DNA of 64,000 bases from Meiothermus sp. (GTDB taxonomy: Bacteria > Deinococcota > Deinococci > Deinococcales > Thermaceae), in NCBI RefSeq assembly GCF_026004115.1, contig NZ_BPIM01000001.1, forward strand, positions 558,001 through 622,000. Direction: 5' to 3'. The position numbers and the translations under genes are program-made. The notes beneath the pieces were generated by a model, which was not told where the DNA came from, searched no databases, and saw nothing but the letters and a program-made list of their open reading frames with translations. Below are positions 36,026 through 40,156 of the stretch, one piece after another. Numbering within the stretch: the first letter of the stretch is position 1; every line of letters starts with the position of its first letter.

Positions 36026-37849
36026 ATGTACAAGAACCTTCAGGCATTCATCCAAGACCTAGATCGCCAGGGCGAACTCCTACGCATCCAGGAGCCAGTT
36101 TCCTGCGAACTGGAAATCACCGAAATCGCCGACCGCATGGTCAAATCCGGCGGGCCGGCTTTGCTCTTCGAAAACGTACAAGGCCGCGATTTTCCGGTCT
36201 TTATCGGGGGTTTTGGTACGGCGGAGCGCACCGCGCGGGCCATGGGGGTAAAGCGCCTGGACGACCTGGCCGAGCGGGTCGCCCGCTTGATGAACCTGAA
36301 CCCCGGCAAGGGCGGCCTCAAGGCGGCTTTTGCCCTGCTGCCCAAGCTGCGTGAGCTGAAGGGCTTTTTCCCCAAAAAAGTGCGCGGCGGCCCGGTGCAG
36401 GAGGTAGTCTGGCAGGGCGAACAGGTAGACCTGTCCAGAATTCCCATCCTCAAGTGCTGGCCCCTGGACGGCGGCCCCTACATCACCTTGCCGCTGGTGA
36501 TTAGCAAAGACCCCGAAACGGGCGAGTTGAACCTGGGCATGTACCGCATGCAGGTGCTGGACAAACAAAGCACCGCCATGCACTGGCAACTGCATAAGGT
36601 GGGGCGGCGGCACTACGACAAGGCCAAAAAGCTGGGGAAGCGGCTCGAGGTCGCCGTTGCCCTGGGGGGCGACCCCATCCTGACCTACGCCGCCACTGCC
36701 CCGGTGCCGCCCATTCCGGGCGTGAACGAGTTCAACCTGGCCGGGTTTTTGCGTGGGCAGCCGGTGGAGCTCACCCGTGGCATCACGGTAGACCTGCCCG
36801 TGCCCGCCGAGGCCGAGTTTGTGCTCGAGGGCTACATAGACCCCGCTGAAGACCTGGTCGTCGAGGGGCCTTTTGGCGACCACACCGGCTTTTACACCCT
36901 GGAAGACTTCTACCCCCGCTTTCACCTGACCGCCATCACCCACCGCAAGAAAGCCATCTACCCCGCAACCATCGTGGGCCGCCCCCCCATGGAAGATGCC
37001 TATCTGATCGAGGCTTCCGAGCGGCTCTTCCTGCCCGCCGCCCAGCTCATCCTGCCGGAAATTGCCGACTACCACATGCCCCCCGCCGGGGTGGCCCACA
37101 ACTGGGTCAACGTGAGCATCGAAAAACGCTACCCCGGCCAGGGCTACAAGGTGGCCAACGGCCTCTTTGGGCTGGGCCAGATGATGTTTGCCAAGGTGAT
37201 GGTGGTGCTGGACGCAGGCGCCCCGCTCAAAGGCCCCGAGGCCCTGCAGCACGCCCTGCAGCACGCCGTGCCGGGCCGCGATACCCTGGTCTCGAGGGGC
37301 CCCATCGATGTGCTCGACCACTCTTCGCGGGCTATGGGCTATGGGGGCAAGCTGATTATCGACGGCACGGCCAAGCTGGAAGAAGAAGGCGGCCCCCTCC
37401 CCTTCACTCCCAGGGCCCACCCCAGCCTGCCGGGCATTCCGGGGGTGCGCCAGAAGCAACTGCCCGGTATCTGGATGGCTACGCTGGAGAAAACCCGTCC
37501 CTACCAGGCCCGGGAAATCGCCGAGCATCTGCTGGTTGCCCCTCAGAGCGCGGGCATCCGCCTGGTGCTCATCACCGATAGCGACACCCAGCTGGACTTC
37601 GACGAGGTGATGTGGGCGGTTCTCAACAACATTGACCCCGAGCGCGACGCCTGGGTGATGTCCGGGGTGGAGGGGCCGGTGCTGGTGCTGGATGGCACCC
37701 GCAAGCTGGCCGAGGAGGGCTTTACCCGCCGCTGGCCGCCCAAAATCGCGATGTCACCCGAAATTGTGCGGCGCGTGGATGAGCGCTGGAAGGCGCTGGG
37801 GCTACCGGCCCTGCCACCCAAAGACACCGGCGTAGTTACCAGGTTCTGA
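36026..37849 (+). CDS. UbiD-family decarboxylase (candidate for late menaquinone synthesis)
   Basis: A 607-residue UbiD-type decarboxylase, an enzyme class that uses prenylated FMN. Family phrases include LPLVISKDPETGELNLGMYRMQVLD, VAVALGGDPILTYAATAPVPP, EGPFGDHTGFYTLEDFYPRFHL and KAIYPATIVGRPPMEDAYLIEA. The ATG at 36026 lies 7 nt after a TATCCT box, which fits a leaderless transcript; an upstream in-frame start at 35975 lacks support. Because mqnE and mqnA of the futalosine pathway are in the same window, the likely role is decarboxylation of the prenylated naphthoate intermediate; this is inference. The small exported protein follows after 105 nt. Confidence 0.88.
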   Translation: MYKNLQAFIQDLDRQGELLRIQEPVSCELEITEIADRMVKSGGPALLFENVQGRDFPVFIGGFGTAERTARAMGVKRLDDLAERVARLMNLNPGKGGLKAAFALLPKLRELKGFFPKKVRGGPVQEVVWQGEQVDLSRIPILKCWPLDGGPYITLPLVISKDPETGELNLGMYRMQVLDKQSTAMHWQLHKVGRRHYDKAKKLGKRLEVAVALGGDPILTYAATAPVPPIPGVNEFNLAGFLRGQPVELTRGITVDLPVPAEAEFVLEGYIDPAEDLVVEGPFGDHTGFYTLEDFYPRFHLTAITHRKKAIYPATIVGRPPMEDAYLIEASERLFLPAAQLILPEIADYHMPPAGVAHNWVNVSIEKRYPGQGYKVANGLFGLGQMMFAKVMVVLDAGAPLKGPEALQHALQHAVPGRDTLVSRGPIDVLDHSSRAMGYGGKLIIDGTAKLEEEGGPLPFTPRAHPSLPGIPGVRQKQLPGIWMATLEKTRPYQAREIAEHLLVAPQSAGIRLVLITDSDTQLDFDEVMWAVLNNIDPERDAWVMSGVEGPVLVLDGTRKLAEEGFTRRWPPKIAMSPEIVRRVDERWKALGLPALPPKDTGVVTRF

Positions 37850-37954: not shown

Positions 37955-38383
37955 ATGAGAGTACTTCTCCTTTCCTGGTTGCTTCTGCTGGGGGCCCCCG
38001 CCCTGGCCCAAACCTTGGTCGAGGTCACCACCGTTGCTGCCACTGCCTCCACCCTCGATGCCAATGTGCGGTTTCCTTCCGGTTCCTTCCGGGCCGGGCG
38101 CGGCAGCGAGGCCATTGTGGCCCGGATTCCCGATGCCGGGCGCTTCAACCTGGAGGTCTATGCGGCCCGGGGCCTGGCGGCTCGCCTGCAGGCCGGTTTT
38201 GTGCAGCAGATTCTGACCGGCTTCGCGGTGGCGGGTTATTTTATGGAGAACCAGCAGGAAACCCAGGTCGCGGGCGAAATTCGCACCCGCTACGACCTTA
38301 AGGACAGCGCAGGCATGGCAGCCATTCTGTTTGTGGTGCGAAAAGGCGACGAGCTGGCGTATGCCTTTGGCAAAGCTCGCTAA
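37955..38383 (+). CDS. Small exported protein of unknown function
   Basis: A 142-residue protein with a clear signal peptide (VLLLSWLLLLGAPALA, cleavage near residue 18). The mature part is beta-prone (NVRFPSGSFRAGRGSEAIVARIP, ATTGxxx-like turns absent) and ends AYAFGKAR. No family is recognised. A TAACCT box lies 7 nt upstream of the ATG. It sits between the UbiD-type gene and a short gene at 38442. Probably periplasmic. Confidence 0.7.
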   Translation: MRVLLLSWLLLLGAPALAQTLVEVTTVAATASTLDANVRFPSGSFRAGRGSEAIVARIPDAGRFNLEVYAARGLAARLQAGFVQQILTGFAVAGYFMENQQETQVAGEIRTRYDLKDSAGMAAILFVVRKGDELAYAFGKAR

Positions 38384-38441: not shown

Positions 38442-38687
38442 ATGAGTGCGCCCTTGCGCTGGTCGGCACTCGAGGCCCGGCTGCCCCTGCACGAGCTGCC
38501 GGCTTTTCACCGGGCTTTCTTGCGCCAACACCGCCCGGAACTGAACCCCGATACCCTGCCGCTGCGGCGGGTGCAGCAGTACGTGAGCCAGACGCTGCAT
38601 GCGCTGGCGAAGGAAGGGAAAGCCCGGCGGGTAGGCGACGACTTCGAACTCGAGGCCGAGCTTATCCCTCCTCCCTACCGAGAGTAG
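38442..38687 (+). CDS. Small hypothetical protein
   Basis: An 81-residue basic, soluble protein (LHELPAFHRAFLRQHRPELN ... RRVQQYVSQTLHALAKEGKARRVG) that looks all-alpha and ends with an acidic, proline-rich tail (ELEAELIPPPYRE). TAGGGAG lies 5 nt before the ATG. The helical layout resembles a small winged-helix or adaptor domain, but no family is recognised. It precedes hemC by 74 nt. Confidence 0.6.
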   Translation: MSAPLRWSALEARLPLHELPAFHRAFLRQHRPELNPDTLPLRRVQQYVSQTLHALAKEGKARRVGDDFELEAELIPPPYRE

Positions 38688-38724: not shown

Positions 38725-38752
38725 TTCACAATCGGTCATTTCCGGCTAATAT
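38725..38752 (+). promoter_or_regulatory. Promoter of the hemC-like gene
   Basis: TTCACA (38725-38730) and TAATAT (38747-38752) with a 16-bp spacer, 9 nt before the ATG at 38762. No Shine-Dalgarno sequence is present, so the transcript is leaderless or nearly so. Confidence 0.6.
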
Positions 38753-38761
38753 ATTGGCGTT

Positions 38762-39655
38762 ATGCGCGTTATCGTAATCGGGGCCAGGGCTAGCCTGTTG
38801 GCCCAAGCCCAGACCCGCTGGGTGATGGAACGCCTGAAGGAAAACTGGCCCGAGACCGAGTTCAAAATACGCACCGTGCAGTCCAAAAACGCCTCCGAGA
38901 GCAGCGCAGCGGAGGCTCTGCGGCAGGCTTTGGGGAAGAGGGAAGTAGACATTGCGGTGTACTCGCTCAAACATCTGCCCACCCAGGAAGTGCCCGGAAT
39001 TCATCTGGTAGCGGTAACCAAGCGGGTAGAGCCCCGCGAGGCCTTGGTAGGACGCAGCGCCAAGCGGCTGGAGGAACTGCCCAAAGGAGCGGTGGTGGGG
39101 GTTAATAGCCTGCGGCGTAAAGCCCAGCTGCTGGCCTTTCGCTCCGACCTGAGTATCCGCGACCTCGAGGGCGACGTGGACGACCGCCTGAGCGCACTGG
39201 GAACCGGCGAGTACGACGCCGTAATTATCGGCGCAGCCAGCCTGCTGCGACTGGATTTGCGTAACCGCATTGACCAGCTCATAGACCCCGAGATTCTGCT
39301 GCCTGCGCCCGGGCAGGGGGCTTTGGGCCTCGAGGTGCGCTTGGGCGACGACTGGGCCGAGGAGCTGGCCTACAGCCTGAACCACCGGGCCTCCTATGCA
39401 CGGGTCAGCGCTGAGCGAGCCTTCCTGCGGGCCCTGGGCGCGGGCGACGAGTGCGCCGCGGGGGCGCTGGCAACCCTGGAAGCCGACGATACCCTGGTCT
39501 TGCAGGGGGTGGTGGCTTCGCCCGATGGCCGCGAACTCATCCGGGCCGAAATCGAGGGCGATGCCGAGGAGGCTGCCGAGTTGGGCCGCGACCTGGCCCA
39601 GGACTTGCTGGCCGAGGGCGGGCGGGAGCTGTTGGGTGCGGTACAGGCCCGCTGA
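38762..39655 (+). CDS. hemC: Hydroxymethylbilane synthase-like protein with altered active-site residues
   Basis: A 297-residue protein alignable over its length with HemC, which joins four porphobilinogens into hydroxymethylbilane for heme synthesis. [36 protein letters not shown] and a cysteine (C231) at the place of the dipyrromethane-cofactor cysteine are kept. However, the essential Asp of the HSxKDxP motif (D84 in E. coli) is His71 here (YSLKHLP), the RGNV arginine (R149 in E. coli) is Glu136 (EGDV), and the GGKG loop is missing between residues 41 and 58. Either the enzyme has diverged or this is a paralog with another role. A Fur-family regulator gene follows after 108 nt. Confidence 0.72.
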
Positions 39656-39763: not shown

Positions 39764-40156
39764 ATGAGCATGAAACGTCTGACCAAGCAGCGCAGGGCCG
39801 TACTCGAGGTGGTTCGCAGTGCCAAGGGCCACCACCCCGATGCTGCTTGGGTATATGCAGAAGTCCGTAAGCTGGTGCCTAGCATTAGCCTGGGCACGGT
39901 GTACCGCACCCTGGATACGCTTATCGAAGAAGGTTACCTCGTGCCCCTATCCCGCCCGGGGGAGGCCCTGCGCTACGAGGCCAACCCGGACGGCCACCTG
40001 CACATGGTCTGCCGCAAGTGCAACCGGTTCTTTGACATCGTGCAGCCCCTGCCCGACCTGCTGAGCGAGGTCAAGGCCCGGTATCCAGGCTACGAGATTG
40101 AGGACGTGCAGGTCGAGTACCACGGCATCTGCCCCGAGTGCCGGGCCCAGGGGTAG
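39764..40156 (+). CDS. Fur/PerR-family metalloregulator
   Basis: A 130-residue regulator of the Fur superfamily. The winged helix spans about 5-80 (HHPDAAWVYAEVRKLVPSISLGTVYRTLDTLIEEGYL); the metal-binding half has HLHMVCRKCNRFFDIV and a C-terminal CPEC, giving two CxxC pairs for a structural zinc. The regulatory site includes the HLH histidines. The set resembles PerR and Fur; which metal or peroxide signal is sensed cannot be decided. Possible targets are itself and the neighbouring hemC-like gene. Its 3' end nearly touches the convergent hydrolase gene. Confidence 0.9.
   Translation: MSMKRLTKQRRAVLEVVRSAKGHHPDAAWVYAEVRKLVPSISLGTVYRTLDTLIEEGYLVPLSRPGEALRYEANPDGHLHMVCRKCNRFFDIVQPLPDLLSEVKARYPGYEIEDVQVEYHGICPECRAQG

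Follow-up and report, generated by a model that had tools for sequence, protein, structure and literature searches.

The hemC-like gene analyzed here encodes a protein that has lost the active site of hydroxymethylbilane synthase (HMBS, HemC) while its fold is predicted to be kept whole, and judging from its sequence it is very unlikely to work as an HMBS. The gene lies in a 64,000-nt stretch of a Meiothermus genome (G000:C1:558001-622000), which we call the window. With moderate confidence, we read it as a pseudoenzyme that has been maintained for a non-catalytic role older than the loss of catalysis, a reading drawn from its retention; the dead protein probably has an unrecognized second job. 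At least two losses of the active site left the fold in place, and one genus dropped HemB, HemD and canonical HemC yet kept the dead protein, which makes for a natural experiment on hidden function in one of the most conserved tetrapyrrole enzymes. In the open-access literature in PMC, we found no report of a catalytically dead HMBS kept by selection. Our survey covers 111 genomes of the phylum, among which Deinococcaceae did not appear. Genera and families are given as g and f numbers: g1 is Meiothermus, g2 a sister genus that we take to be Allomeiothermus, g3 Calidithermus, g4 presumably Thermus (in the same family as the window) and f5 presumably Trueperaceae.

Fold and active site of the window protein

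The window protein matches both Pfam families PF01379 and PF03900 and scores 248 bits against TIGR00212, the HemC equivalog model, for which the cut-off is 164; its closest solved relatives are porphobilinogen deaminases. AlphaFold2 models of this protein and of the dead copy from a closed g22 genome (in the Trueperaceae-like f5) each have a pLDDT of 94. In Foldseek searches, the best solved match of the window protein is E. coli HMBS (1ah5, TM 0.95), and the very divergent g22 copy also matches HMBS structures best (TM 0.92). Given that both models match HMBS best, the whole fold is predicted to survive even where most catalytic residues are gone. The equivalog score is no guide to activity: dead HemC proteins from f1, f3 and f5 (L001, L019, L021, L063 and L072) exceed the cut-off, and another, L089, scores under it. 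By this curated model, several dead HemC proteins are labeled active, and reconstructions of the pathway are misled as a result.

Table 1 Features of the pseudo-hemC locus, in window coordinates.
Feature	Coordinates	Strand	Basis
Pseudo-HemC (HMBS fold, active site lost), 297 aa	38762..39655	+	Profiles, alignment, structure model
YSLKHLP, once HSxKDxP, residues 67-73; Asp84 to His71, His80 to Tyr67	38960..38980	+	Alignment to E. coli and Thermus-type HemC
N115-S116-L117-R118-R119, once SSLRR; Ser128 to Asn115; E. coli R131/R132 kept	39104..39118	+	Alignment
Glu136 codon in place of Arg149 of RGNV	39167..39169	+	Alignment
Asp229 codon where E. coli has the cofactor cysteine, Cys242	39446..39448	+	Alignment
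Cys231 codon	39452..39454	+	Two residues downstream of the cofactor-cysteine column
Fur-family regulator, ancestral neighbor of A-type hemC	39764..40156	+	PF01475; shared gene order
81-aa conserved protein upstream of pseudo-hemC	38442..38687	+	No Pfam match
142-aa conserved protein, signal-peptide-like start	37955..38383	+	No Pfam match; upstream of canonical hemC in f4 too
UbiD-family decarboxylase, upstream in shared gene order	36026..37849	+	Profile match, gene order
Promoter-like TTCACA-16-TAATAT; -10 ends 9 nt before ATG	38725..38752	+	Motif search; -10 conserved upstream of orthologs

Most of what a first-pass annotation had claimed about the active site, from the sequence alone, holds up in the alignments. 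His71 does stand in place of the catalytic Asp84 of E. coli (HSMKDVP to YSLKHLP), Glu136 does replace the arginine of RGNV (which becomes EGDV), and the SLRR arginines are retained as Arg118-Arg119. Alignment to E. coli and Thermaceae orthologs confirms that the GGKG loop is deleted; it is part of an active-site loop that is gone, including the equivalents of K55 and K59. The annotation erred in stating that the cofactor cysteine remains. A stretch of gap-free alignment between the window protein and Thermus-type HemC, GLGAGCMAPVGAL, places Asp229 at the cysteine column, and the Cys231 that had been taken for the cofactor residue is two residues off register. Further pocket changes are Thr127 to Val114, Ser128 to Asn115, Asn151 to Asp138, Ala170 to Gly157 and Gly173 to Ser160.

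That the aspartate is needed for catalysis in E. coli, as the annotation stated, is documented: the D84A and D84N variants have no activity, R149H shows impaired function, activity is affected in K55Q and K59Q, and Cys242 carries the cofactor through a thioether (PMC3945110). We infer that the window protein, given its sequence, cannot attach the dipyrromethane cofactor or polymerize porphobilinogen.

These changes recur among orthologs. In all 17 copies from the genus, the cysteine column is Asp229 and the catalytic-Asp column is His or Tyr; Cys231 is present in 16 of the 17, being absent from M. granaticius (L018), and is also missing from both sister genera. Because the active site is lost in all 21 orthologs from three genera (g1, g2 and g3), its loss is not due to chance.

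Part of the ligand-binding cleft survives. The window protein retains equivalents of E. coli R131, R132, R155, R176 and R232, and R9, R118, R119, R142, R219 and Q185 are invariant in the 17 genus copies (R163 and K70 in 16). Former pocket sites in these copies have an identity of 0.944 versus 0.847 elsewhere, a value reached in 17 of 5000 random draws. This excess is not significant across the three genera (804 of 5000 draws) and is not seen in the f5 copies, which lack the equivalents of K83, R132 and R176 and nearly always that of R155. The SLRR motif is likewise not kept in other dead copies, reading TLCR in g3 and R-D in f5.

Distribution, selection and gene neighborhood

As the first-pass annotation had proposed, we searched the genome for a second, canonical hemC and found one at C1:189 kb. 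Its product is 37% identical to the window protein over residues 5-238 and has intact HSYKDLP, RGNV and GGCQ motifs. The gene is flanked by a hemA-like and a hemD-like gene (HEM4 family) in a hemA-C-D-B cluster, with hemB following at 190.9 kb and ferrochelatase nearby at 195.6 kb. Given this canonical copy, we reject the possibility that the genome has no HemC besides the window gene; since the copy sits in a hemA-C-D-B cluster, the window gene is not needed for heme there. With Arg149, the active-site loop and both the catalytic Asp and the cofactor Cys lost, the presence of a canonical HemC elsewhere strongly supports the annotation's suggestion of a pseudoenzyme.

In a phylogenetic tree, the window gene falls in one clade, A, and the canonical copy in a separate one, B. 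B may go back to the common ancestor or have spread later. A is the sole HemC in genera g4 and g5 and in families f4 and f2, where 24 of 24 copies examined are canonical; none of the canonical A copies that we examined shares its genome with another HemC. By contrast, 21/21 A copies examined in g1, g2 and g3 have a broken active site, and g1 and g2 also carry canonical B. A is dead as well in f3 (2 copies) and in f5 (11 copies examined), with those of f5 being far more divergent. The two dead A groups lie apart in the tree of 34 proteins, and a tree that forces all dead A together as a single clade is worse by 32.6 log-likelihood units (p-AU 0.0039). Because a single dead clade is rejected, the active site was lost on at least two occasions; the AU test and the positions of the live copies also lead us to reject one shared loss of activity for all dead A copies.

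Some observations on other HemC genes came out of the survey. In Calidithermus, the canonical HemC is of a third type, C, which is unlike B and lies near hemB (L050 in G003, L051 in G004); it was apparently a separate acquisition or replacement. Two Thermus-type genomes have their sole HemC broken into two frames near residue 44 (G029:C1:1923118-1924013 and G038:C1:120431-121329), which may be a sequencing error or a real frameshift. One candidate pseudo-HemC from another phylum, L123 of Hydrogenedentota, proved canonical and was rejected.

The dead copy is kept by purifying selection. Among the Meiothermus dead copies, the median dN/dS is 0.107 (135 usable pairs). The corresponding value is 0.188 for the canonical B of this genus and 0.123 for A of the Thermus type. 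The reading frame of the dead copy is open in 17 of the 18 genus genomes. These values and the intact frames reject a decaying pseudogene. In f5 the ratio is 0.395, a weak value because synonymous sites are near saturation. The dead copy is dispensable in places, being missing from G008, G055 and several f5 genomes. At the corresponding locus of G008, which is from the same genus (G008:C194:7208-10591, L125), fur and the downstream genes are kept, and hemC-A and its upstream neighbors are gone.

Upstream of the window gene, TTCACA and TAATAT pair at a spacing of 16 nt (1 site found, 0.3 expected). Nearly all Meiothermus copies have the TAATAT hexamer, which ends some 9 nt ahead of the start codon, and most A genes, live or dead, have a similar near-start -10-like box. 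The position of these motifs suggests a leaderless promoter.

The Fur/PerR regulator that the first-pass annotation placed beside the gene is indeed a Fur-family gene (Table 1), starting 108 nt downstream. The order hemC-fur, in many cases with a folC-like ligase gene after it, is common to genomes with live A (Thermus-type and f4) and to those with dead copies; it is broken in some Meiothermus (L102, L107, G015). Since fur also lies beside canonical A genes, it is an inherited, ancestral neighbor, and we reject its presence as a sign of a heme-sensing role. In f5, the dead hemC (L072-L091) follows metK, the gene for S-adenosylmethionine synthetase, on the same strand at 11 of 11 loci, 29-383 nt apart. 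A strict operon with metK is made less plausible by the near-start -10-like box that most f5 copies have of their own and by other f5 genomes in which metK occurs and the dead copy does not. The gene neighborhoods of the two dead lineages differ, which makes a single shared role uncertain.

The dead copy also persists where the heme pathway does not. Genus g22 of f5 is represented by six genomes (G089-G094) that are 91-98% complete, one of them closed. HemB, HemD and canonical HemC were not found in any of the six, all of which keep dead A; ferrochelatase was not found in three of the six, including the closed one. G057, of f3, likewise keeps dead A without HemB, HemD or canonical HemC. Heme-copper oxidase genes are present in all six g22 genomes, several in each, and in G057. 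From their gene content, g22 and G057 are apparent heme auxotrophs, and given the oxidase genes in all six g22 genomes, heme is presumably imported there. With no HemB, HemD or canonical HemC in g22, the dead protein cannot rely in that genus on an active HemC partner or on porphobilinogen of the cell's own making; it might handle imported heme.

Possible roles of the dead protein

The strong selection, the repeated retention after independent losses of catalysis and the persistence without the upstream pathway together argue for a non-catalytic, ancestral role. We propose that the gene would be the old Thermaceae hemC, A, inherited vertically, and that porphobilinogen deaminase activity would have been lost before Meiothermus, Calidithermus and a sister genus diverged, with a second, canonical hemC doing the chemistry in those genera. 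The active ancestor would already have moonlighted in the non-catalytic role, which could explain why the dead copy was kept twice. As a bolder extension, A-type HemC might be bifunctional, with a second, pathway-independent function since the common ancestor that keeps dead copies in both lineages; we offer this only tentatively and would lean against it. If true, the sole HemC of Thermus would be a moonlighting enzyme.

The likely mode of action would be the binding of a partner protein through R19, W29, D197, Y204, R214 and D281, on helices of domains 1 and 3. R19, W29, L143, Y204, R214 and D281 are invariant in all 29 sampled A proteins, live and dead, and rare in 12 outgroup HemCs. Most A-specific residues lie on or just after helices 12-28, 197-204, 209-225 and 268-295 in the secondary structure of the model (domains 1 and 3); they may form a binding surface or merely reflect clade-specific structural packing. 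In Meiothermus, the surviving cleft arginines might also hold a carboxylated ligand non-covalently.

That possibility leads to the main competing explanation for Meiothermus, in which part of the anion-binding cleft is preserved: a sensor or carrier of tetrapyrroles or porphobilinogen, with a pyrrole or porphyrin carboxylate ligand held non-covalently in the old cleft. Such a protein would report on, buffer or channel heme intermediates, possibly with the neighboring Fur regulator. We judge this rather unlikely. The five arginines R9, R118, R119, R142 and R219, invariant in the genus, the greater conservation of the pocket there and the fur gene downstream are what one would look for in a sensor, but the pocket conservation does not reach significance when all three genera are taken together, the f5 copies lack the equivalents of K83, R132 and R176 and nearly always that of R155, g22 makes no porphobilinogen, and the fur neighbor is ancestral and separable. 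Of the heme-pathway sensor suggested by the first-pass annotation, what stands is that most carboxylate-binding arginines remain in Meiothermus; adjacency to fur, which it shares with canonical A, lends no support. The annotation's other suggestion, new chemistry, would make Cys231 or the set of His71, Glu136 and Asp229 the catalytic groups of the old cleft, and we consider it improbable. The replacement residues are indeed fixed or nearly so within the genus (Asp229, Asn115, Asp138, Gly157 and Ser160 in 17/17, Glu136 and Cys231 in 16/17), but the set is not found in the sister genera, where Glu136 is Ser or Lys and Cys231 is missing, and the Trueperaceae-like copies have unrelated pocket residues; the suggestion thus finds little support.

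HMBS enzymes are generally regarded as monomeric, which weighs against a third alternative, that the dead paralog forms heteromers as a prozyme-like regulatory subunit of canonical HemC or another heme enzyme. The dead copy is mostly found where a canonical HemC is also present, as this idea would have it, but all six g22 genomes and G057 keep it without canonical HemC, HemB or HemD, and the dead copy is missing from G008 and several f5 genomes that do carry a canonical HemC. A universal activator of canonical HemC is rejected by g22 and G057, and for the clade as a whole, Meiothermus itself apart, there is no prozyme-type dependence on an active paralog. Dead paralogs do activate partners elsewhere, such as the trypanosome AdoMetDC prozyme (PMC5201418); we nonetheless find a regulatory subunit unlikely here. 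Least credible of all, and in our view highly improbable, is residual or altered HMBS activity with the cofactor on Cys231. The SLRR arginines are kept and Cys231 is two positions away from the canonical site on the cofactor-bearing turn, yet D84A and D84N are inactive in E. coli (PMC3945110), Arg149 and the loop lysines are lost too, M. granaticius and both sister genera lack Cys231, and the window genome has a canonical enzyme.

Comparison with known systems

The window protein resembles E. coli HMBS/HemC (1PDA/1AH5) in its whole-length homology, its three-domain fold and the arginines noted above, and differs in lacking Asp84, Arg149, Cys242 and the active-site loop and in having a canonical enzyme encoded in the same genome. 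Another counterpart is the Thermus-type HemC of clade A (L023-L031), an ortholog of about 61% identity with the same fur neighbor and the same A-specific residues; in contrast to the window protein, it keeps HSLKDLP, RGNV and GAGC and is the sole HemC of its genome.

As a dead paralog of a metabolic enzyme beside an active copy, the window protein recalls the regulatory pseudoenzymes AdoMetDC prozyme (PMC5201418) and plant PDX1.2 (PMC6829848). The difference is that dead HemC is also kept in genomes that have lost the active enzyme and its pathway, which rules out activation of its own active paralog as a general role. A precedent for non-catalytic HemC roles is offered by plant plastid HEMC and rice SPL42, which moonlight in RNA editing: plant porphobilinogen deaminase binds RNA-editing factors, a protein-binding role beside catalysis (PMC9866984). 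The plant proteins are active enzymes, and none of the sequence features examined here ties them to the window protein.
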